From positions 1 to 23,443 of the forward strand of contig JASNJN010000064.1 of assembly GCA_030180075.1 (NCBI GenBank): 23,443 nucleotides of DNA. Reading direction: 5' to 3'. Below the pieces are notes generated by a model. It saw only the letters and a list, made by a program, of their open reading frames with translations, was not told the DNA's origin and ran no database searches. This DNA is from Mikrocytos mackini (Eukaryota > Endomyxa > Ascetosporea > Mikrocytida > Mikrocytiidae). The first letter of the stretch is position 1. The number at the start of each line of letters is the position of its first letter. Positions 5,266 to 23,443 of the stretch are shown here, in pieces. Both the position numbers and the translations under genes were made by a program.

Positions 5266-5628
5266 TAGAGATTGAACTTACGAATATTCGTTTTGAAAAA
5301 CTTCGAATATTCGCCAAAAATCGAATTTCCGGTATTCGTTTTCCGAATTTTTTTTGAAAATAATTTCAATTTTTGCAAAAATTTTCAAAAAAAATTCGAA
5401 TATCCGTTAATTTTTTGATGTCAAAAAATTAAATTTTGGAGTTGAATATAAAAAACATGCAAAATTTAGTTTTAAAATCCAGAATGACGAATCAATATTT
5501 AAAATAAATTTATTAAAAAAATTTCAGCATATTGAGACATTCCAAAATTCCTAAGATTATTCGAATATTCGTCCACTTGGAAAATCGTGCTTCGAATATT
5601 CGCTCATTTTGCAAGTGTCCAATCTCTA
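5266..5628. mobile_element. Non-autonomous hAT-type element in the vWA domain region
   Basis: A 363-bp element has inverted ends TAGAGATTG and near-matching 8-bp flanks CCGGTGTG (5258-5265) and CCAGTGTG (5629-5636), one mismatch. Inside, the palindromic word CGAATATTCG and variants recur close to both ends as subterminal repeats. The element splits an open frame (GAGKLTL before, GGTLESHAG after) whose phase is preserved across the duplication. No coding capacity. The diverged duplication suggests an older insertion than the one at 2361. Confidence 0.8.
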
Positions 5629-8019: not shown

Positions 8020-8869
8020 CAATATAACCATCGGAGGTAAATTAAGAGGAGACCAGACGGTTTGGCTGGGGGTAGAGCTCCCAGAAATTGCTTTTATATT
8101 TATATAGGAAATCGCCCTAAAACATGCATTTTTGCGCCAAATTGCCGCTAAAACGATGAAAATCCATCCATTTTATTATAAAATTGGGAAAATTCCTTCC
8201 AAAAAAATAACCTGAAATGACAAAATAATTCTGTTTATGTATTAATAACGATATTAAATAACTATTAATGATAAATATGGCGAATTTAATTTTTGATTTT
8301 TCGTCAAAAATTTGATTTGAATTTTGCCAGATTGGCAACTCAAATAATTCCATTTATTACGCCAAATTGCTGTTATTTTAGTCAATTTACCTAAAAATTC
8401 CCCAAATTGCTTTGTTGCCTTTTATTTCTTTTAAATATCGCTACCAGAGGCTCTACGGGATCTGAAAATCGTTATAAAGCGTTAAAATGATGTAATAATA
8501 ATCATGTGTCATTTTTAAAAATTTCTTTTTGGGAGCCCTAGCTGGGAGTATAAGACACATATTGGAGTTATCGATGGGTTGCAGAGGGATTCCCCATGTG
8601 TTCAGGGAATATCCCCACATGAAGCTCTATTTAGTCGGAAAATGCGTATTTCTCTTAGCCACTTGGCCCCTAGCAGAACATGTGAACAGGAAGGAATAAA
8701 AGATATAGATAGAGTGGAAAGAAAACAACTAAGAATGAAAAGGAACTTTGATAAAAGAGGAACAGTCCAGGAAAGCCCGATAAAATATGGGACTGTATCC
8801 GAATTAAAAACATTGATGGCCAATATAGAAGACCAACGAGAGTGGTGGGCATTGGAAGAACTTCTGTAA
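8020..8869 (+). pseudogene. Ty3-type integrase C-terminal fragment, split by a hAT-type element
   Basis: Downstream of the inserted element (8073-8540) an open stretch reads YKTHIG, then GISPHEALFSRKMRISLS, then FDKRG. This is the order seen at the end of LTR-retrotransposon integrases: a Tyr/His stretch, the sPxeaLfgRk motif, and a later basic region with fDkr. A short stretch just upstream of the element (LRGDQTVW-like frame) is plausibly its continuation. Reverse transcriptase, RNase H and the integrase DDE core are absent, and no LTRs were found. The end at 8869 is a TAA. It is a relic. Confidence 0.5.
8073..8540. mobile_element. Non-autonomous hAT-type element in the integrase relic
   Basis: A 468-bp element has inverted ends TAGAGCTCCCA / TAGGGCTCCCA and 8-bp flanks GCTGGGGG (8065-8072) and GCTGGGAG (8541-8548), one mismatch. 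The minus-strand open stretch inside it has no recognisable similarity and is probably chance. It lies within the integrase fragment, so it inserted after or during the decay of that retroelement. Confidence 0.72.
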
Positions 8870-9332: not shown

Positions 9333-10094
9333 TTAAGGCGCAGGTTCCCACTCCTGTCCTTCTAACACAAACAAATCATTATCCAATCTTTCCAAGTCAC
9401 TTACCCCACAAATATTCTCAAAGAATATTTTTAAAGTAAACTTTTTTGTAACTCCAACAATGTCCGGATTTATTATCAATCTAATAACGCTTTTAATACA
9501 AAAGAACCAATTGCTTGTAAAAGGAGGGTCGTTATAAGTGCCGTATAAGTTTTCCAGAACAGCTACCACTTCAGAGTCGCTGATTTGGAGCACGCACGAA
9601 GTTACGACTGGATCTATGGCGCCCAGACTGGCTGTGTACCCAGTTTTCGCTGCGGGGAACGCTTGTGAGAGAATTGTTACGCCGTTTACCTTCTGCTCGA
9701 GCACTATGTCTTCTGATGGGTCAAGACGAAGGGTTATCTCAAGCTCTTGGTTGTTAATGCGCTTTAAAACTGAGTTCCAAATCCGCTTGAATGCGTCGTT
9801 GTGCTTTGTTGCTGTGTTAATGGTTAGAGGACCTTTTGGGACTAGTTTGACTGGTACAAACAATGTAAGCATTTCACATTCCGGTGGTGCGTTTGTGAAC
9901 GTTTGGAAGTGTGGGTACTCCCTCAAAGTATTACCTCGTGTGTTCTCAGACTCTGTAAATCTTCGTGAGTTTTTCCTCAAATATCCAGAAAATTGTTTTT
10001 TGTTCAGTTTGCTGTTTGTATTTTCATATTTCTTTATTGGCCTTGAAAAAGCACAAAATAACAAGAAATTTATGATAAGAAAGTTTCTAACCAT
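9333..10094 (-). CDS. Secreted four-cysteine WFFC-motif protein, paralogue 1
   Basis: Predicted protein of 253 residues, function unknown. Residues 1-18 form a hydrophobic signal peptide (FLIINFLLFCAF, then SRP), so the product is probably secreted. A basic, low-complexity stretch (about 20-60) precedes a conserved domain with cysteines at 73, 167, 199 and 229. The most conserved part is CVLQIS, an acidic helix-like stretch, a Tyr, then NWFFC at 195-199 and FENIC at 225-229. Spacings are 94, 32 and 30 residues, nearly the same as in the two paralogues to the right. The ATG is chosen because it starts the signal peptide and lies next to a TTTTTAAAATT block. It is divergent from paralogue 2 over a 72-bp spacer. 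I know no named family with this pattern. Confidence 0.85.
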   Translation of the reverse strand: MVRNFLIINFLLFCAFSRPIKKYENTNSKLNKKQFSGYLRKNSRRFTESENTRGNTLREYPHFQTFTNAPPECEMLTLFVPVKLVPKGPLTINTATKHNDAFKRIWNSVLKRINNQELEITLRLDPSEDIVLEQKVNGVTILSQAFPAAKTGYTASLGAIDPVVTSCVLQISDSEVVAVLENLYGTYNDPPFTSNWFFCIKSVIRLIINPDIVGVTKKFTLKIFFENICGVSDLERLDNDLFVLEGQEWEPAP

Positions 10095-10166
10095 TTTAAT
10101 TTTAAAAATTGAATTTATTTATAAATTTAAAAATAAATTAAATTCAAAAAAGTTTTTTGTAAACAA
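10095..10166. promoter_or_regulatory. Bidirectional promoter between paralogues 1 and 2
   Basis: This 72-bp, almost purely A+T spacer must serve both divergent genes. It contains TTTAAAAATTGAATTTA at 10101-10117, which recurs exactly at 11200-11216 upstream of paralogue 3, and AATTCAAAAAA, also shared with that promoter. Such AAATTT-like blocks next to start codons are described for microsporidian genes. Function is inferred from position and recurrence. Confidence 0.55.
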
Positions 10167-10913
10167 ATGATATTTTTCTCAATTTTACTTGTTTCTTTGG
10201 TAATAAACTTCGGTACATCATTTATGAACCGAAAAAGTACAAAGAACAACCTGATCGAATCTTTAGCCAATTATCGAGACAATCTTTACAGAAAGAAACT
10301 TAAAATTTCTAAACACGCAAAACAACACAGCCTGAAACAGTTCGCATTACCTGGCGTGTGTGCAACTATTTTAGACAACATCACAACAATAGAACTGTTA
10401 GATCCCAATTCTTTAACCCCAGCAACGAATAACATTTCAAACAGAGTTTGGCGCTACATTTGGAGAGTCGTACGCAGAACGCCCAACCAAGAGAAGTTCA
10501 CAGTTAGGCTAGACCACGACGGGAGCTACAACTTCGTGCTCAACCAATACAACTCTTCAGACTTGCTTACCGTTCTAGAAGCAGACAATTTCAATGTTGG
10601 AGACATTGAGTTCGAAGAGTCTTCAATTACTTCTCCAAACGACGCCTGTTTGCTTAAAATCTACGACACAACTTTAGACGCTGTTTTAATTGACATATTT
10701 GCGCCTTACGATTTCAATTCTACGTCAACGTGGTTCTTCTGTGTGGAGCCCAGGATAAACTTAAAGATAGGACAGTCCTCAGCTGTTCCAGGGCCAAATG
10801 ACGTGGGAGATTTAAAGATAGAAATAAAGTTCTTCAATTTATGTGCTAATCCTGAAACAGAATTACCGGTAGATGTTTTGTCTGAACTTAAAACAGAATA
10901 TAAAAAGATATAA
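10167..10913 (+). CDS. Secreted four-cysteine WFFC-motif protein, paralogue 2
   Basis: Predicted protein of 248 residues, function unknown. The N-terminus (IFFSILLVSLVINFGTSF) is a signal peptide. A Lys-rich region (about 21-60) is followed by the conserved domain with cysteines at 65, 161, 192 and 226 (spacings 96, 31, 34). Matching landmarks to paralogues 1 and 3 are a Trp-rich stretch (VWRYIWRVVRR, 94-104), CLLKIYD at 161, TWFFC at 188-192 and FFNLC at 222-226. Even cysteine number and fixed spacing suggest two disulfides in an extracellular or secretory-pathway domain. No transmembrane segment follows the domain. The stop TAA is followed by AATAAA-like words. Sequence identity to the neighbours is low outside the landmarks, so the family evolves fast. 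Confidence 0.85.
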   Translation: MIFFSILLVSLVINFGTSFMNRKSTKNNLIESLANYRDNLYRKKLKISKHAKQHSLKQFALPGVCATILDNITTIELLDPNSLTPATNNISNRVWRYIWRVVRRTPNQEKFTVRLDHDGSYNFVLNQYNSSDLLTVLEADNFNVGDIEFEESSITSPNDACLLKIYDTTLDAVLIDIFAPYDFNSTSTWFFCVEPRINLKIGQSSAVPGPNDVGDLKIEIKFFNLCANPETELPVDVLSELKTEYKKI

Positions 10914-11276
10914 AGATAAAATAAATATATAAAAATGTTAATAAAATAAATAGTGATTATTTGTATTTGTACGTTTTTATGAAAATAGATAATAGTAGAA
11001 GAATTGTTATTGTTTAAAATAAAAAGAATTAAGAAAAACATATTATAAATAAATATTTGATGAAAGTATTAAAACTTTTAATTCTAATTTTAATTTAGTA
11101 TTATTGCTATTTACAAGAGACATTTATTTTGCATTTATATTTAATTTTATAAAAGCCTTTACTATTTTTTTCACATATTTTTTGCCTTAAAAATTTAACT
11201 TTAAAAATTGAATTTACATTTTCAAAGTTTCAAATTTCCAATTCAAAAAATGAATTTAATTTTAAATTAAATTTTC
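10914..11276 (+). promoter_or_regulatory. Intergenic region and upstream block of paralogue 3
   Basis: No gene is seen. The last 77 bp carry TTTAAAAATTGAATTTA (11200-11216, identical to 10101-10117), an AATTCAAAAAA word, and a palindromic run of AATTTAA/TTAAATT words at 11253-11275 directly before the ATG. An ATG at 11250 opens a 6-codon frame ending at 11270; it matters only if transcripts begin upstream of it. Confidence 0.5.
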
Positions 11277-12035
11277 ATGTCTCTTACCAATATTTTATTA
11301 CTTCTTTTAAGCTCACATTTAACATTCCCACGACTTAAGCCCACCACCAACACCAACAACAAGCAATCTCCCCATCTTCACGCCCGCCCTTTCAACCACG
11401 GCAACTCCCGCGCACCAATTATCCAAAACACCGAAATAGCATCCACTCCCATTTGTCAGAATTTATTCCCAAGTTCCACAGGCCTTAAACTAGTTGGAGT
11501 AGTTGGCAACTTAGTAAACACTCCGTTACAGTCCGGGCATATTTGGAACGTAATTTGGAACGGCATAAAAAGATTAGTCGCTACGCCAGACATTGTCCCA
11601 TTCATTACGCAAGCGTCCGCGCAAACTCAATTGCAATTAGGACAGAATTTTGGTGGATTTCCTGGCACAAATTATATTGGCTTTGTAAGCAATGAATTTG
11701 TTGAGTACACACTTGAACAAGCTACGTTTGATGGGGACCCGCTTGTGTCTAGGGACGTCTGTAGGATCAAAGTTGAAGACCCAGACCTCACTGCAATCCT
11801 GTACGACATATTCACGGTGTATAACGGGAATACACCAGAGTGGTTCTTTTGTACGGAAATAAGTATTAACTTTTTTATAACTCCAGATGATGCTGTGAAT
11901 TATGGTGCTGATAGTAAAAAATTTCACTTTGAAATTAGATTTGAAAACGACTGTGCAGATAATGGGCCAGAACCACTTGCAACAGAAGTTTATAAGATTG
12001 AGAATTTAAATTGGGATTCGGTGGTGTTAATTTAG
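11277..12035 (+). CDS. Secreted four-cysteine WFFC-motif protein, paralogue 3
   Basis: Predicted protein of 252 residues, function unknown. The signal peptide (about residues 1-18, with NILLLLLSSHL) is followed by a Pro/His/Asn-rich linker (20-55). The conserved domain has cysteines at 60, 162, 192 and 226 (spacings 102, 30, 34). Landmarks shared with the other two are IWNVIWNGIKR (89-99), CRIKVED at 162, YDIF/VYN, EWFFC at 188-192, and FENDC at 222-226. It lies in tandem with paralogue 2 on the same strand. It is the most diverged of the three in the region between the first two cysteines, where it is Gln/Gly-rich. No membrane anchor. Possible roles (spore surface, secreted effector) are guesses from the signal peptide and tandem amplification only. 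Confidence 0.85.
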   Translation: MSLTNILLLLLSSHLTFPRLKPTTNTNNKQSPHLHARPFNHGNSRAPIIQNTEIASTPICQNLFPSSTGLKLVGVVGNLVNTPLQSGHIWNVIWNGIKRLVATPDIVPFITQASAQTQLQLGQNFGGFPGTNYIGFVSNEFVEYTLEQATFDGDPLVSRDVCRIKVEDPDLTAILYDIFTVYNGNTPEWFFCTEISINFFITPDDAVNYGADSKKFHFEIRFENDCADNGPEPLATEVYKIENLNWDSVVLI

Positions 12036-12401: not shown

Positions 12402-13760
12402 ATGTTAACATCAAGATTACTCATCCTACACATCTTAATATCACACTTCATCTGCACAGATACCTCTTCATCCTCCAAGATAGGTCTGGACGACTCTTTG
12501 TCCGAACATTTAGGATACTACCAGAACAAGTCTATTACTCGTCTAATTACTCTCACCGACAAAACAGAAACCCACAAAATAACATACAGAATAATATCTC
12601 AATTCAAAGGAGAACTTAAAGAACCGTACCTAATATTCGTCCCCAAAGACAAAGTGGGTCATCTGGTCTCTCTAATAGCCCGCACCAAACTGCTCACCCA
12701 CGAACACTACACCACTTCCCCACTACGTCCTTCTTTACACTCTGACTTCTCTTTGTATGACATAGACTACTCCATATACGAGATAGACCTCCCCCAGTCA
12801 CTAGTAAAGTTGAACGAGCCAGGTGAGTTCATCTTGGAACTGACTATCAAGTACATAAAGCCATTCATAATAGACAACACAAACTTGGTGTATAGAGACT
12901 ATACTGGAGTGTTCAGTATATACATTACCACCATGATGATCACTAAGTTGGATTATACCGAGAGTGCCAAGATACTCCTTAACTATACGGGAAGTGACAA
13001 GACAGACCTTCCTATATCATTACACACTGAAAATAAACTATTGGTATATGGTCCATACAAAGACCTGGTACCTATGGATGATAGTTCTATTTATAATATA
13101 GAGAGGATAGAGGGACTGTTCAAAACACACAGGGGAATACCAGAGATAAACAAACTAAAGAGAACGATCAAATACAATTACTTCAGTAAAATGAGGTATA
13201 CAATAGGGGATAACATTGTACTAAAGAACATATACAATAATAATAATGATAATAATAATAGTATAGATAACAACATTAGGTTTATAAGACTGAACTTTAA
13301 TAACTATAAGAATATTAAGATAAGGAAAGATAATGTTAGTAAAGACAAGTACTACTATGACAAAGCGAGTGGGAATCTGTTAGTTAAGTTTGACAGAGAT
13401 TTGAAGCCACAAGAAGAGAGGGAGATAAAGTATGACTTTAGTACGAAGACTAAGAGCATAGGGTTAAAGCCTTATATTAAAGACCACTATATAATGAAGA
13501 GGAAGATTGTAGTAATTGCCCCTTTGTTCTTTACATTCAAGAAGATAAACAGTAAGCATAGTTTCCTGGTTAAAAGGAAGAGGGTTGCTTTCTTCTTTAA
13601 TAATGAATATGCTGTATATGAAGACAGTTATGTAGACACAGAGAGTGACAATAAAGAAGATGGAACAGTAGAAGCAGAATTTGAATTGGATAAAAAAGAA
13701 GTTTCTAAATTGGTGTTTAGTATAGTAGGAGTTATACTAGGCTTTATCATACTTAAGTAA
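12402..13760 (+). CDS. Divergent ribophorin I (OST1)-like type I membrane protein
   Basis: Predicted protein of 452 residues. Ribophorin I/OST1 is the large lumenal subunit of the oligosaccharyltransferase that N-glycosylates proteins in the ER. Family-like landmarks appear in the expected order: ITRLITLTD near 45-53 (family: RxIDL), YSIYEIDLPQSL at 123-134, VYGPYKDL at 215-222 (the GPY/GPF block, which is the strongest match), RTIKYNYFSKMRY at 254-266 in place of the usual IEVSHWG stretch, and KYYYDKASGNLLV at 316-328 (family: DVYYxDxxGN). A signal peptide (about 1-18) and a single C-terminal membrane segment (434-450) fit the topology. An Asn-rich insert lies at 277-291. The protein is shorter than typical and lacks the WG of SHWG, so the call rests on order and architecture. 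Alternatively it is an unrelated ER or surface protein. Confidence 0.5.
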   Translation: MLTSRLLILHILISHFICTDTSSSSKIGLDDSLSEHLGYYQNKSITRLITLTDKTETHKITYRIISQFKGELKEPYLIFVPKDKVGHLVSLIARTKLLTHEHYTTSPLRPSLHSDFSLYDIDYSIYEIDLPQSLVKLNEPGEFILELTIKYIKPFIIDNTNLVYRDYTGVFSIYITTMMITKLDYTESAKILLNYTGSDKTDLPISLHTENKLLVYGPYKDLVPMDDSSIYNIERIEGLFKTHRGIPEINKLKRTIKYNYFSKMRYTIGDNIVLKNIYNNNNDNNNSIDNNIRFIRLNFNNYKNIKIRKDNVSKDKYYYDKASGNLLVKFDRDLKPQEEREIKYDFSTKTKSIGLKPYIKDHYIMKRKIVVIAPLFFTFKKINSKHSFLVKRKRVAFFFNNEYAVYEDSYVDTESDNKEDGTVEAEFELDKKEVSKLVFSIVGVILGFIILK

Positions 13761-13970: not shown

Positions 13971-15206
13971 TTAACTCGTGTAATCCAAAGTTTTATCTTT
14001 GTTTCCAACCATCAGCACAGTCAATACTATACCTGTAATCACAAGTACAACAAAGATTACTAACAATGCAATGAACCAACCTGACTTGTACCACTTTGAA
14101 GCTTCTTTCTTATCAGTGGAGCTACTGCTGCTAGAACTGTCGCTTGAACTGCTGCTGCTACTAGAACTGTCACTTGAACTACTGCTGCTGCTAGAACTGT
14201 CGCTTGAACTACTGCTACTGCTAGTTGTTCCGCTTGTACTGCTACTGCTAGTTGTTCCACTTGTACTACTAGTGCTAGTTGTTCCGCTTGTACTACTACT
14301 GCTTGATGTGTCTTTGCTTGAAGTTTTCTCAGTGCTTGTGTCTTCGCTTGAAGAGGCCTCGGTTGTATCAACACCCATTGTCTTAGCCTTTTCCGCTGTT
14401 TGTCTGTCAATCTCCTCTTTAACCCGAGTGTAAACTAAAGTAATCAATTCAGTAGACATATTAGGAATCACAATGGCGTTGCTTGGGTCAGCCTTATATC
14501 CCTTTAGCGCTTTCTTAGCTTCCTCATGCCTCTTAGCATCATCCTCGGCAACTCTATACAAGTCACAGTATAGCACCGGGAGGTGTACAAAGTTAGTACC
14601 ATTGTTAAAGATATATTTAGCGAACTGACAGTTGTCATCCTCGTCTTCATCTTCCAGCTTAAACGAACCTTTGACGTTGCTCTCTTGGTACCTTAACAAA
14701 GACCCGTCTGTATTGTCTACCAAGCTATTCAAAAACTTATCTCTTTCCTCCTTAGTTATTCCCTTTTCCTCTTGTGTAGTCACTTCGTCGCCTTCAGCGC
14801 GAGCAACTAAGTCCGTAGACTCTTTCTCTTTCTCTTCTTCTTCTTTCTTTTCAAGCAGAACAAACTTCTTGTAGTCTGCGTCTGTAATGTGCGTGTTCAT
14901 TGAAACTATTCCTTCTTTTGGAATTTCCATAGTGAAAAGGAAAGTTCTATTATTCCAAGTTACGACTTCCCATTTGGCAGACGTTTTGTTTACCAAGGGA
15001 GTCGAGTAAATCAAGTGGAGCACTGCAGTGTGCACCAACACTGGCGCGTCATCCTCAGTGGGTTTATCGGCAATGGTTAAGTACGCCTTTATCATGTTGT
15101 CACTAGATATCTGCTTGGCGATGTGCGTTGCTTTATTCTTGTCTACCCACCACTTGGAAAGTGCGAGGTGGACAAAGATTGAGACTGCAAGTAATTTCTT
15201 TATCAT
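13971..15206 (-). CDS. Serine-repeat type I membrane protein with signal peptide
   Basis: Predicted protein of 411 residues, function unknown. I start it at the ATG at 15206, which opens directly into a signal peptide (MIKKLLAVSIFVHLALS). The frame stays open 10 codons further upstream but without an ATG. The ectodomain has only two cysteines (193, 214), likely a disulfide, four N-glycosylation sequons (N73, N86, N202, N249) and Glu/Lys-rich stretches around 120-155. Residues about 285-363 are a Ser/Thr repeat stalk: STSGTTSSS-type 9-residue units, then D plus nine Ser 10-residue units. A membrane segment (377-400) and an 11-residue tail close the protein. This build is common for surface proteins whose Ser/Thr stalk is O-mannosylated (inference). 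A TTTAAAATTTAATT block lies about 35 bp upstream of the ATG on the coding strand. Confidence 0.8.
   Translation of the reverse strand: MIKKLLAVSIFVHLALSKWWVDKNKATHIAKQISSDNMIKAYLTIADKPTEDDAPVLVHTAVLHLIYSTPLVNKTSAKWEVVTWNNRTFLFTMEIPKEGIVSMNTHITDADYKKFVLLEKKEEEEKEKESTDLVARAEGDEVTTQEEKGITKEERDKFLNSLVDNTDGSLLRYQESNVKGSFKLEDEDEDDNCQFAKYIFNNGTNFVHLPVLYCDLYRVAEDDAKRHEEAKKALKGYKADPSNAIVIPNMSTELITLVYTRVKEEIDRQTAEKAKTMGVDTTEASSSEDTSTEKTSSKDTSSSSSTSGTTSTSSTSGTTSSSSTSGTTSSSSSSSDSSSSSSSSSDSSSSSSSSSDSSSSSSSTDKKEASKWYKSGWFIALLVIFVVLVITGIVLTVLMVGNKDKTLDYTS
14131..14301 (-). repeat. In-frame minisatellite: three 30-bp and three 27-bp units
   Basis: Three adjoining 30-bp units start at 14131, 14161 and 14191 (each beginning CTAGAACTGTC on the plus strand). 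Three adjoining 27-bp units start at 14221, 14248 and 14275 (each beginning CTAGTTGTTCC). They encode the Asp/Ser and Thr-Ser-Gly-Thr-Thr parts of the stalk. Units within each class differ at only a few bases, and the two classes resemble each other, so they probably share an origin. Both unit lengths are multiples of three, so copy-number change keeps the frame. Confidence 0.9.
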
Positions 15207-15927: not shown

Positions 15928-16851
15928 ATGTTATTCAAACTTTTCATCTTCTTCACATACTCACTCCAACATCACTACACCCAAGGCTTCGGTACAATCA
16001 AAGGTGTTTTACTCACTACATTCGAAGTAAACAACAGCAACTGTGAGAACAATGGCAGGTACCTAAACTTCGTACTTATCAATATAGAGAACGACAAAGC
16101 TCTCATTAAGTTCGACGATTTCATTAAGTTCAATCTTTTGTTGAGCGTTACATTAAACGACCACACAAACATCGCCGAGACAGAGTACAATACACTATTC
16201 GACCTAAACGCCATCCCAGACACTCCCACTACAAAAAACAACACAGCAAACTTTTACCAATTAAAAACTAAACAATTAGTAAACAATATAATTTACAAAG
16301 TTAAAAACACATTGCAAAGTGACTTTATTGTAAAAGAGTTAACGCAAAGATTGCCCAGTGTTACATTTGGAAATGAAAATATGAACCCGGAATATGTTAA
16401 AAGTCTTACCACTTCAATAATGTTAGTACCAACTGTTGATGCTATGTACAGAAATAATCTATGTGGGAAATCTTATTTAATAACTAACCTTATTTATAGT
16501 GAGTACAAAGATAATATTAATATAAATGTTGATTCTAAATATAGTAGTGCTCATACTATAACTATACCAATTATTCTTTACAATAATAGAAATAGAGACA
16601 GTGGAAATATTTCTATTGATGAAAATAGTTTGGATGATAAGGATACAAATGCTATTAAAAAAAATTTCGATGAAATATGGAAAGAAAATGAAGAAGGACT
16701 TTTTGATGATCATAATAGAGCAAAAGTTAAATATAAAAACGACGAGAAAAGGAAAAAATTTTATCCTACGGAAATATTTATTATCATAGGATTGTCGTTT
16801 ATGGGAATTTTGATTATTATTACATTTATAAATGAAAAAATAAATAATTGA
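15928..16851 (+). CDS. Type I membrane protein of unknown function
   Basis: Predicted protein of 307 residues. A signal peptide (MLFKLFIFFTYSLQHHYTQG, 1-20) opens the frame and a hydrophobic segment near 282-301 (IFIIIGLSFMGILIIITFI) closes it, leaving a 6-residue tail. The ectodomain is Asn-rich and has two cysteines, C39 and C179, which could pair. Several NxS/T sequons occur (for example NNS near 35 and NNT near 104). The juxtamembrane part (about 240-275) is Lys/Asp/Glu-rich and may be helical. The build matches the serine-repeat protein transcribed divergently from the same spacer, but I see no sequence similarity between the two. The last third has higher A+T and more Ile/Asn/Lys codons than the start. 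No family recognised. Confidence 0.75.
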   Translation: MLFKLFIFFTYSLQHHYTQGFGTIKGVLLTTFEVNNSNCENNGRYLNFVLINIENDKALIKFDDFIKFNLLLSVTLNDHTNIAETEYNTLFDLNAIPDTPTTKNNTANFYQLKTKQLVNNIIYKVKNTLQSDFIVKELTQRLPSVTFGNENMNPEYVKSLTTSIMLVPTVDAMYRNNLCGKSYLITNLIYSEYKDNININVDSKYSSAHTITIPIILYNNRNRDSGNISIDENSLDDKDTNAIKKNFDEIWKENEEGLFDDHNRAKVKYKNDEKRKKFYPTEIFIIIGLSFMGILIIITFINEKINN

Positions 16852-21512: not shown

Positions 21513-22262
21513 TCAGCATGATACGATCTCAGCTGGCCCCCTCAGCCAGCTGTAGATCACCAAGGATCCTTTCAACCCCACGTTTTGGATTTTCCCAACG
21601 AGGTGGTTGATTGTGCGGATCCGCTTGGGTTTATTGGTCCAGGAGGTTACCTGCTGTTTGCAGGACCTCTTTAAAAAGTGTATAAGACTTTGGGTAGAGC
21701 GTTTGGAAATTACTCCTAGTTGTCCAATTATGAAGGCTCTCACCTTCACTTCGAAACCAGGGTACTGGTTTCGAAGGACAGGGATGAGATCCAGGTATTT
21801 CCCGGACTTCTCTTCTTCCCGAGATTTGATCAAATCCTCGGCGGGGACTGCTACTTCTAGCAGTTCTACCCGCCTGGATGCATGGTCTATTGCTATGATA
21901 TCTGGAAGGAGGAAATGTGGCTTGTCCTCCATACCTTCAACCCATAGCCTTTGGTCTGGCACCAGTTGGAAGGAGTCCGAGTTTTTCTCGATTCTCCTAC
22001 CCATATCTGATAGCTTGAGTTTGTCTCCTAGGCCTCGTCTTCTGATGACTTCGTTTGCTATCTGCAAAACGACTCCATCGTGACGAGACTTTAGGAGAGC
22101 GAAGGGGATTTTCGTACATGCTCCCAAAACATGTCCGAAAGTTTCCCATGTGGAATGACACTTCCGACATAGGTTGGAGAGGTCCCGGTTTATGACTTTT
22201 GCCCATGTCCGGATATCTCTTTTTCCGTCCTGTAACTGCAAGATTTTCTTGCAATCGTTATG
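21513..22262 (-). pseudogene. LINE zinc knuckle and REL-type endonuclease segment
   Basis: Continuation of the same protein after a second frameshift near 22262, reading HNDCKKILQLQDGKRDIRTW onward. The CCHC knuckle is CRKCHSTWETFGHVLGAC (C-x2-C-x8-H-x4-C), as in R2/R4 elements. Next comes the endonuclease: LLPDIIAIDHASRRVELLEV supplies PD and E, and a Lys follows in the SGKYLDL stretch. It nicks target DNA for priming. The frame ends at a TGA (21515-21513). The last 40 residues match the truncated copy at 17148-17270. Confidence 0.85.
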
Positions 22263-22333
22263 AGAATAGACCTGGTTGTTTAAGCCAGATGTGGGTGAGC
22301 TGGTGGTTCACAAAATCTCTCATTCTGGCTCTG

Positions 22334-23443
22334 TTAAAGCCAGATGGGAGCTTTGTTGCATTCCACTTTAAAAGGTGTTGGTGTTCTATCCTCATCGACA
22401 CGCAACATGGATGTGTTTCGTCCAGTAAATTGCTGAATTCTTTCAGCTTCTTGCTGGATACGACCCACTATATCCACCCTTGTTGCCTTCATCTCTGGTC
22501 GACGCTTGATTAACCACTCCTGGACTCTCACAATGTTTTCAGCGAGACTGCCCCTGATGAAACGGCTATTGCCTTCACTTGACACTTCGTCCAATTTGCA
22601 CGCTTTAAGGTACTTGGAGACTGCTAGTGTTTCTAGCCAGTATTCGTGTTTGAAGTTTGGCAATCCAAAACCACCTACCTCTGGCCTGGCATGGACTCTC
22701 CCGTTTGAGATCTTCCATGGGATCCTGTTGGCCCTCTTGACCTGGACTCTAGCGAATCTTGTAAGATCCTCCAGTTCGGTGTCCGTGAATCGTAGACATT
22801 GGCCTACGAATCTGATCAGAGGGGCAGCATACACCAACATGGGTTTTCCCATATTGACTACGTTGATGAGTGTCAGAGGTGAGAAGACGATCTTTTTAAT
22901 TCTCGCCTTCGCCTCTTTCATCACTGCGTCTTTGGTAGTCATTGTGTTGTTCCAGTGCTGCTTGAACCCAAGGTATTTGTACTCATGGGTTTCAGTCACC
23001 ATAGGGAAATCACTAACACCCTGGGTGGAGTTTTTCTCTTCCTCAGTTTTGTTCGTAACAATACCGCTCTTGGCATTGTTAATGAACAAGCCGACTAGTT
23101 TAGCCAGTTTGCGTATTTCGCTAACCTTTTGGCCTAGTCGGTGTAGTGACGAGCCAAACAGTTTGATGTCATCCATGTAACATATTTTGTCCACAGTGAC
23201 TTCATCGACCAGCGTTGATATTTTCATCGCGTTGTCTTGGTTTGCTCTCAACACAGTTAGTGCCACACAAAAGAGGGTCGGGGACATTTTGTCTCCCTGG
23301 AATATCCCTCTTTTAATGTTTATCTGCTCACTCTCGCCCTTGAAGTTCGTTATATACGTCCTCCAGAGGGGCATGAGTGCCCGCAGAATGGCTACTAACC
23401 TATTGGGTTTGTTCGTTGAGGATTGGGTGGTCACTTCAAGCAT
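22334..23443 (-). pseudogene. LINE reverse transcriptase segment (partial at the window edge)
   Basis: This segment would copy element RNA into DNA at the target site. In 369 codons it shows GIFQGDKMSPTLFC (RT block 4), YMDDIKLFGSS (catalytic block 5, two aspartates intact), GLFINNAKS (block 6) and YKYLGF (block 7), followed by the thumb and a linker with RFARVQVKRANRIPW. The N-terminal RT blocks lie right of the window; the Met at the edge is not a real start. The frame ends at a TAA (22336-22334) caused by what looks like one extra C in a CCC run just upstream (about 22345); the next frame continues with GFNRARMRDFVNHQLTHIW. Confidence 0.88.

Follow-up and report, generated by a model that had tools for sequence, protein, structure and literature searches.

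Four-cysteine, probably secreted proteins of Mikrocytos mackini form a family of three types with a shared upstream element

The window, the whole stretch of DNA analysed here, is 23,443 nucleotides of Mikrocytos mackini contig JASNJN010000064.1. We number it C58 within a 13.6-Mb, 733-contig assembly of this rhizarian. It carries three neighbouring genes, wA, wB and wC, that encode four-cysteine proteins of 248-253 residues. They lie exactly where a preliminary description, made from the letters alone, had placed them, and all three reading frames are intact from ATG through stop. The features of the locus are as follows.

9333-10094, minus strand: wA (type A), 253 residues, four cysteines, hydrophobic N-terminus
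9333-9878, minus strand: acidic four-cysteine core of wA, C73 to the end, stop included
10095-10166, no strand: divergent intergenic region common to wA and wB, 72 bp, with TTGAATT/AATTCAA sites at 10109-10115 and 10141-10147
10167-10913, plus strand: wB (type B), 248 residues, four-cysteine protein
10359-10913, plus strand: acidic four-cysteine core of wB, C65 to the end, stop included
11208-11246, plus strand: paired sites upstream of wC, TTGAATT/AATTCAA at 11208-11214 and 11240-11246
11277-12035, plus strand: wC (type C), 252 residues, four-cysteine protein
11454-12035, plus strand: acidic four-cysteine core of wC, C60 to the end, stop included

The core cysteines are at residues 73/167/199/229 in wA, 65/161/192/226 in wB and 60/162/192/226 in wC. 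These positions reproduce exactly the spacings first reported (94/96/102, 32/31/30 and 30/34/34). wA has an additional cysteine, C14, within its hydrophobic N-terminus. The third cysteine ends NWFFC, TWFFC and EWFFC in wA, wB and wC, and the fourth ends FENIC, FFNLC and FENDC. Pairwise local alignments of the three proteins scored 123, 142 and 142, against maxima of 62, 54 and 58 for shuffled sequences (300 shuffles each). In searches within the genome the window members matched one another at expectation values (E) of 5.0e-10 to 3.9e-8. Judged by these comparisons, wA, wB and wC are homologous beyond doubt.

Each window protein, used as query, recovered the same eight loci: three on C58, four on C65 and one on C320. 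The clustering of the genes is borne out. The relatives outside the window are listed below.

C65:10371-11150 (37% identity) and C320:34161-34889 (32%): type A relatives of wA
C65:7992-8738 (44% identity) and C65:11853-12614 (36%): type B relatives of wB
C65:9185-9925 (42% identity): type C relative of wC

Eight is a lower bound, because the searched assembly, smaller than the one published for M. mackini (49.7 Mb, 16,018 contigs), appears to be a subset made up of long contigs. All eight members have the four cysteines, spaced 94-102 (C1-C2), 30-32 (C2-C3) and 29-35 (C3-C4) residues apart. WFFC at the third cysteine, described as invariant, holds for the three window proteins and is exact in six of the eight members. 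c65B1 has FFFC and c65A has WAFC, so the motif over the family is [WF][FA]FC. The F(E/F)N-x-C motif at the fourth cysteine likewise stands for the window proteins and widens to F-[EFY]-[ND]-x-C over the eight. Alignment-invariant positions, in wA numbering, are M1, C73, L84, W106, Q134, C167, F198, C199, F225 and C229. An enzyme role is disfavoured because no invariant residue is of catalytic type.

The N-terminus is hydrophobic in all eight members (15-residue mean 1.61-2.57). This fits the secretion signal proposed in the preliminary description and points to a putative signal peptide. A variable linker of 39-53 residues, counted from residue 21, separates the N-terminus from the core. In every member the linker is net basic (+2 to +9) and the core net acidic (-6 to -17), an opposition of charge that had not been noted before. 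A basic linker could in principle be a targeting segment, with the proteins exported as effectors that act on the surrounding mitochondria of the host. Mikrocytids are closely associated with host mitochondria, according to the part of PMC10245619 available to us. The linker is not clearly amphipathic by eye except in type B, and it sits after the hydrophobic N-terminus. The presumed work site tells against this reading too. Disulfide-held cores would be unusual among proteins that work in the cytosol. We regard mitochondrial targeting as very improbable.

The members fall into three groups in a tree: A (wA, c65A and c320A; bootstrap 93), B (wB, c65B1 and c65B2; bootstrap 100) and C (wC and c65C; bootstrap 96). 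Identity is 31-44% inside a type and 15-25% across types, 44% being the maximum for any pair. Types A, B and C are all present in both clusters, and in each the adjacent B and C genes are co-directed. C65 carries two B genes and C320 a single A gene. Since the tree groups the genes by type and each type is present in both clusters, the types predate the copying of the cluster. We saw no young duplicate among the eight members. The statement that the family diversifies fast does not follow from these data: no pair exceeds 44% identity, and the types are older than the cluster duplication and have each been retained in both clusters. The history looks like an old, maintained specialisation of three types.

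To our searches the family is new as a sequence family, and ordinary as a kind. None of the eight members matched any Pfam model over its cut-off, and no calycin model was among the matches up to E 1. Two members had sub-cut-off Pfam matches (HTH_Tnp_2, E 0.012; DUF3695, E 0.021), which we judged to be chance. PDB chains gave no match by sequence at E≤10, and a viral structure library gave none at E≤0.001. Against 5.8 billion proteins, the family profile had a single match at E≤10, GAHX01001837; a core-only profile added GAHX01003501 and GAHX01002112. These equal c65B2 (one residue different), c65C and c65A (both with no difference), so transcripts are known for three family members. In the available part of PMC9998036, GAHX01000001 is tabulated as M. 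mackini transcriptome. A microsporidian source, the initial idea given the AT-rich DNA and the scarcity of introns, was given up on the strength of these transcript matches. Side evidence on the point is weak: a microsporidian small-subunit ribosomal RNA (SSU) model detected no SSU gene in the assembly and is not discriminating, as it gives a hit in 9 of 14 control genomes, and the top PDB entries matched by uL16 and eEF2 appear not to be microsporidian. wA alone as query found no protein and so was not seen among the transcripts. For wB, wC, c65B1 and c320A a miss says little, because the full profile missed proteins that the core-only profile found. The database gave no homologue from another species, no search having been directed at Paramikrocytos or the remaining Ascetosporea. 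The earlier remark that no described family carries this signature agrees with these results. The family is undescribed in the open-licence literature searched, supplements aside, including the parts seen of PMC10245619, PMC11069148 and PMC9998036.

The genes also share an upstream element, TTGAATT/AATTCAA. The two sites are 32 bases apart both in the wA/wB region and upstream of wC. Within the window, element positions include 10109, 10141, 11208, 11240, 15230 and 15915. Twenty sites lie within 150 bases of the ATG of the eight family genes, two of them shared by wA and wB; 1000 dinucleotide shuffles gave a mean of 2.0 and a maximum of 8. The family sites are 10-73 bases ahead of the start codon, with one exception at -145. 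At least two sites were found upstream of 8/8 family genes, 0/11 housekeeping genes and 0/6 other genes with hydrophobic N-termini (classes assigned by eye). At least one site was found upstream of 8/8, 1/11 (at -149) and 3/6, respectively. The comparison genes were the 17 at hand and not a random draw, with labels given by eye except for uL16, eRF3 and eEF2. Enrichment gave p = 2.9e-6 (7 family promoters against 17 genes), a post hoc value, because the motif was spotted by eye in the same promoters and then counted. An earlier count over 14 other frames, which took the outer ATG of a Ser-rich frame, found one site each in two. The element is a strong lead and suggests co-expression of the family genes. 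Divergent promoters as short as the wA/wB region may be nothing unusual in this genome: 66 bases separate the divergently oriented uL16 and RtcB-like genes (the latter label by eye; L026, C65:16334-18595).

Co-expression, as the shared element suggests it, would suit a structural coat. In such a coat, A, B and C would build a hetero-oligomeric layer on the parasite surface or a secretory organelle, each protein binding the acidic core of its neighbour through its basic linker. The retention of all three types in both clusters and the opposite charges in every member would also suit it. A fixed stoichiometry is not visible, given the lone A gene of C320 and the two B genes of C65, and the members have no membrane anchor. 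We consider such a coat unlikely.

Having a signal peptide is no proof of export, and the proteins could be luminal housekeeping residents of the endoplasmic reticulum or vacuole that never face the host. The neighbouring gene at 12402-13760 (plus strand; 452 residues, hydrophobic N-terminus, C-terminal span) lends this some colour, since its sequence pattern, with neither Pfam nor PDB support, looks to us like that of a very divergent ribophorin I (OST1). None of the eight sequences has a KDEL-like tail, and the lack of homologues from other species in the protein database would be unusual for housekeeping proteins. The BiP-like and ribophorin-like genes (labels by eye) have no upstream site. 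Residence in the secretory pathway seems quite improbable to us.

The element also precedes some unrelated genes with hydrophobic N-termini, two of them in the window.

13971-15206, minus strand: non-family frame with hydrophobic N-terminus, Ser-rich stretch and C-terminal hydrophobic span (by eye), read from an internal ATG; one site 30 bases upstream
15928-16851, plus strand: non-family frame with hydrophobic N-terminus and C-terminal hydrophobic span (by eye); one site 13 bases upstream

Neither frame has a Pfam match over the cut-off. Across the genome the paired pattern has 114 places and its reversal 6; the count takes overlaps twice, includes transposon copies and a 22-base repeat, and is listed only in part. 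We inspected 17 non-family regions, the first 9 listed and 8 chosen for dense sites. Of five frames scored there, four (L038, L054, L055 and L056) have at least two sites within 150 bases upstream and one (L058) has none. All four are hydrophobic in a stretch near the N-terminus and lack Pfam matches above the cut-off. The other 12 regions held transposon-like frames, the 22-base repeat, sites within frames or no clear gene. The repeat, TTGAATTGGCGGATAAATTCAA, was found at 11 listed places, one copy with a changed base, on C10, C61, C72, C75, C80, C91, C124, C143, C168 and C198 (L037, L046 and L047); it is perhaps a transposon end.

Around Q and C2 the L054 protein seemed to line up with the family. 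hmmsearch gave it 1.6 bits (E 8.3, 813 open frames) and hhalign a probability of 0.04, and we do not claim relatedness. L054:428-1066 and L060:1480-2112 (both minus strand) are a secreted-looking pair, 45% identical with two shared cysteines; the 45% paralogue of L054 lies on C91. The element precedes both, with four sites and one site, respectively.

A predicted antiparallel beta-barrel like that of calycins (lipocalin or fatty-acid-binding protein, FABP, like), with an extra helix, is the probable fold of the core, which has about 180-195 residues. The model of full-length wA (m0d83a71f1514) had a predicted local distance difference test score (pLDDT) of 64.6 and a predicted template modelling score (pTM) of 0.60; the wB core (m24d4c922edd2) had 73.3 and 0.70. 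Calycins are closed antiparallel barrels of 8-10 strands, and lipocalins carry GxW near strand A. GxW was present in one of the eight members (c320A). The resemblance may instead be an artefact of shallow alignments, the core having a fold of its own, which concerns the fold alone and is compatible with any role; we doubt this, while counting it a real possibility.

The explanation we favour, tentatively and at somewhat less than an even chance, is that these are soluble secreted Mikrocytos proteins with a calycin-type barrel, released at the parasite-host interface, each type binding its own partner. The genes would be transcribed together from the common element, and the proteins would enter the secretory pathway through the putative signal peptide. 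Two disulfides would brace the core, with C1-C2 and C3-C4 as the proposed pairing. The basic linker, perhaps a propeptide, would be removed or serve as a charged tail. Once outside the parasite, the acidic barrel could bind either a host protein or a hydrophobic ligand. Types A, B and C would have been copied as a block and all retained, each with its own partner. The surface or effector role put forward in the preliminary description would be in keeping with such proteins.

Elsewhere in the window, the minus-strand frame at 21513-23443 contains a reverse transcriptase (RVT_1, E 4.8e-14). By eye, a cysteine-histidine finger and a stretch resembling a PD-type endonuclease come after it. We presume it to be a long interspersed nuclear element (LINE) of R2/NeSL type. 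The frame at 8579-8869 (plus strand) resembles the integrase tail of a long terminal repeat retrotransposon (by eye) and has no Pfam match. A repeat at 5304-5627 has a copy on contig C320 with 82.8% identity.

The upstream element and the possible calycin fold may raise the interest of the family. Probably secreted, conserved in its core, divided into three types and preceded by a candidate promoter signal, it offers concrete host-interface candidates. Its members are possible detection markers, and the promoter signal is a testable route to the rest of the secreted set. On a wider view, a secreted barrel family with three obligate types may have arisen within the mikrocytids, marked, with many lineage-specific secreted or membrane proteins, by a paired promoter code. 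We hold this to be on the unlikely side. If true, promoter DNA could suffice to list the host-interface genes, by paired TTGAATT/AATTCAA just ahead of the start codon.

Compared with known systems, the family has a predicted antiparallel beta-barrel in common with the calycin superfamily (lipocalins, FABPs and nitrophorins), with which we also count Tp0751, presumably a lipocalin fold. Secreted arthropod lipocalins combine low identity with conserved disulfides and an expansion of the genes, traits in which the family would resemble them. Should the barrel be borne out, the family would exemplify an expansion of secreted calycin-like proteins in a rhizarian. The genome gave no match for an NTT/TLC gene, though controls gave none either. 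The available part of PMC10245619 describes M. mackini as a strictly intracellular oyster parasite and reports no NTT gene. In the section seen of PMC11069148, signal peptides are over-represented in gene clusters specific to Ascetosporea (939/7004 proteins, against 102/6909 in shared clusters), and 893 of the 939 are in clusters without Gene Ontology terms. The enrichment fits the family; the section makes no mention of any such family, motif, fold or promoter. Aloc SWP2 is a spore wall protein of a microsporidian and not of a rhizarian, and we liken it to the family by description and not by sequence; as given in the part seen of PMC5697631, it too has four conserved cysteines and belongs to an intracellular parasite.
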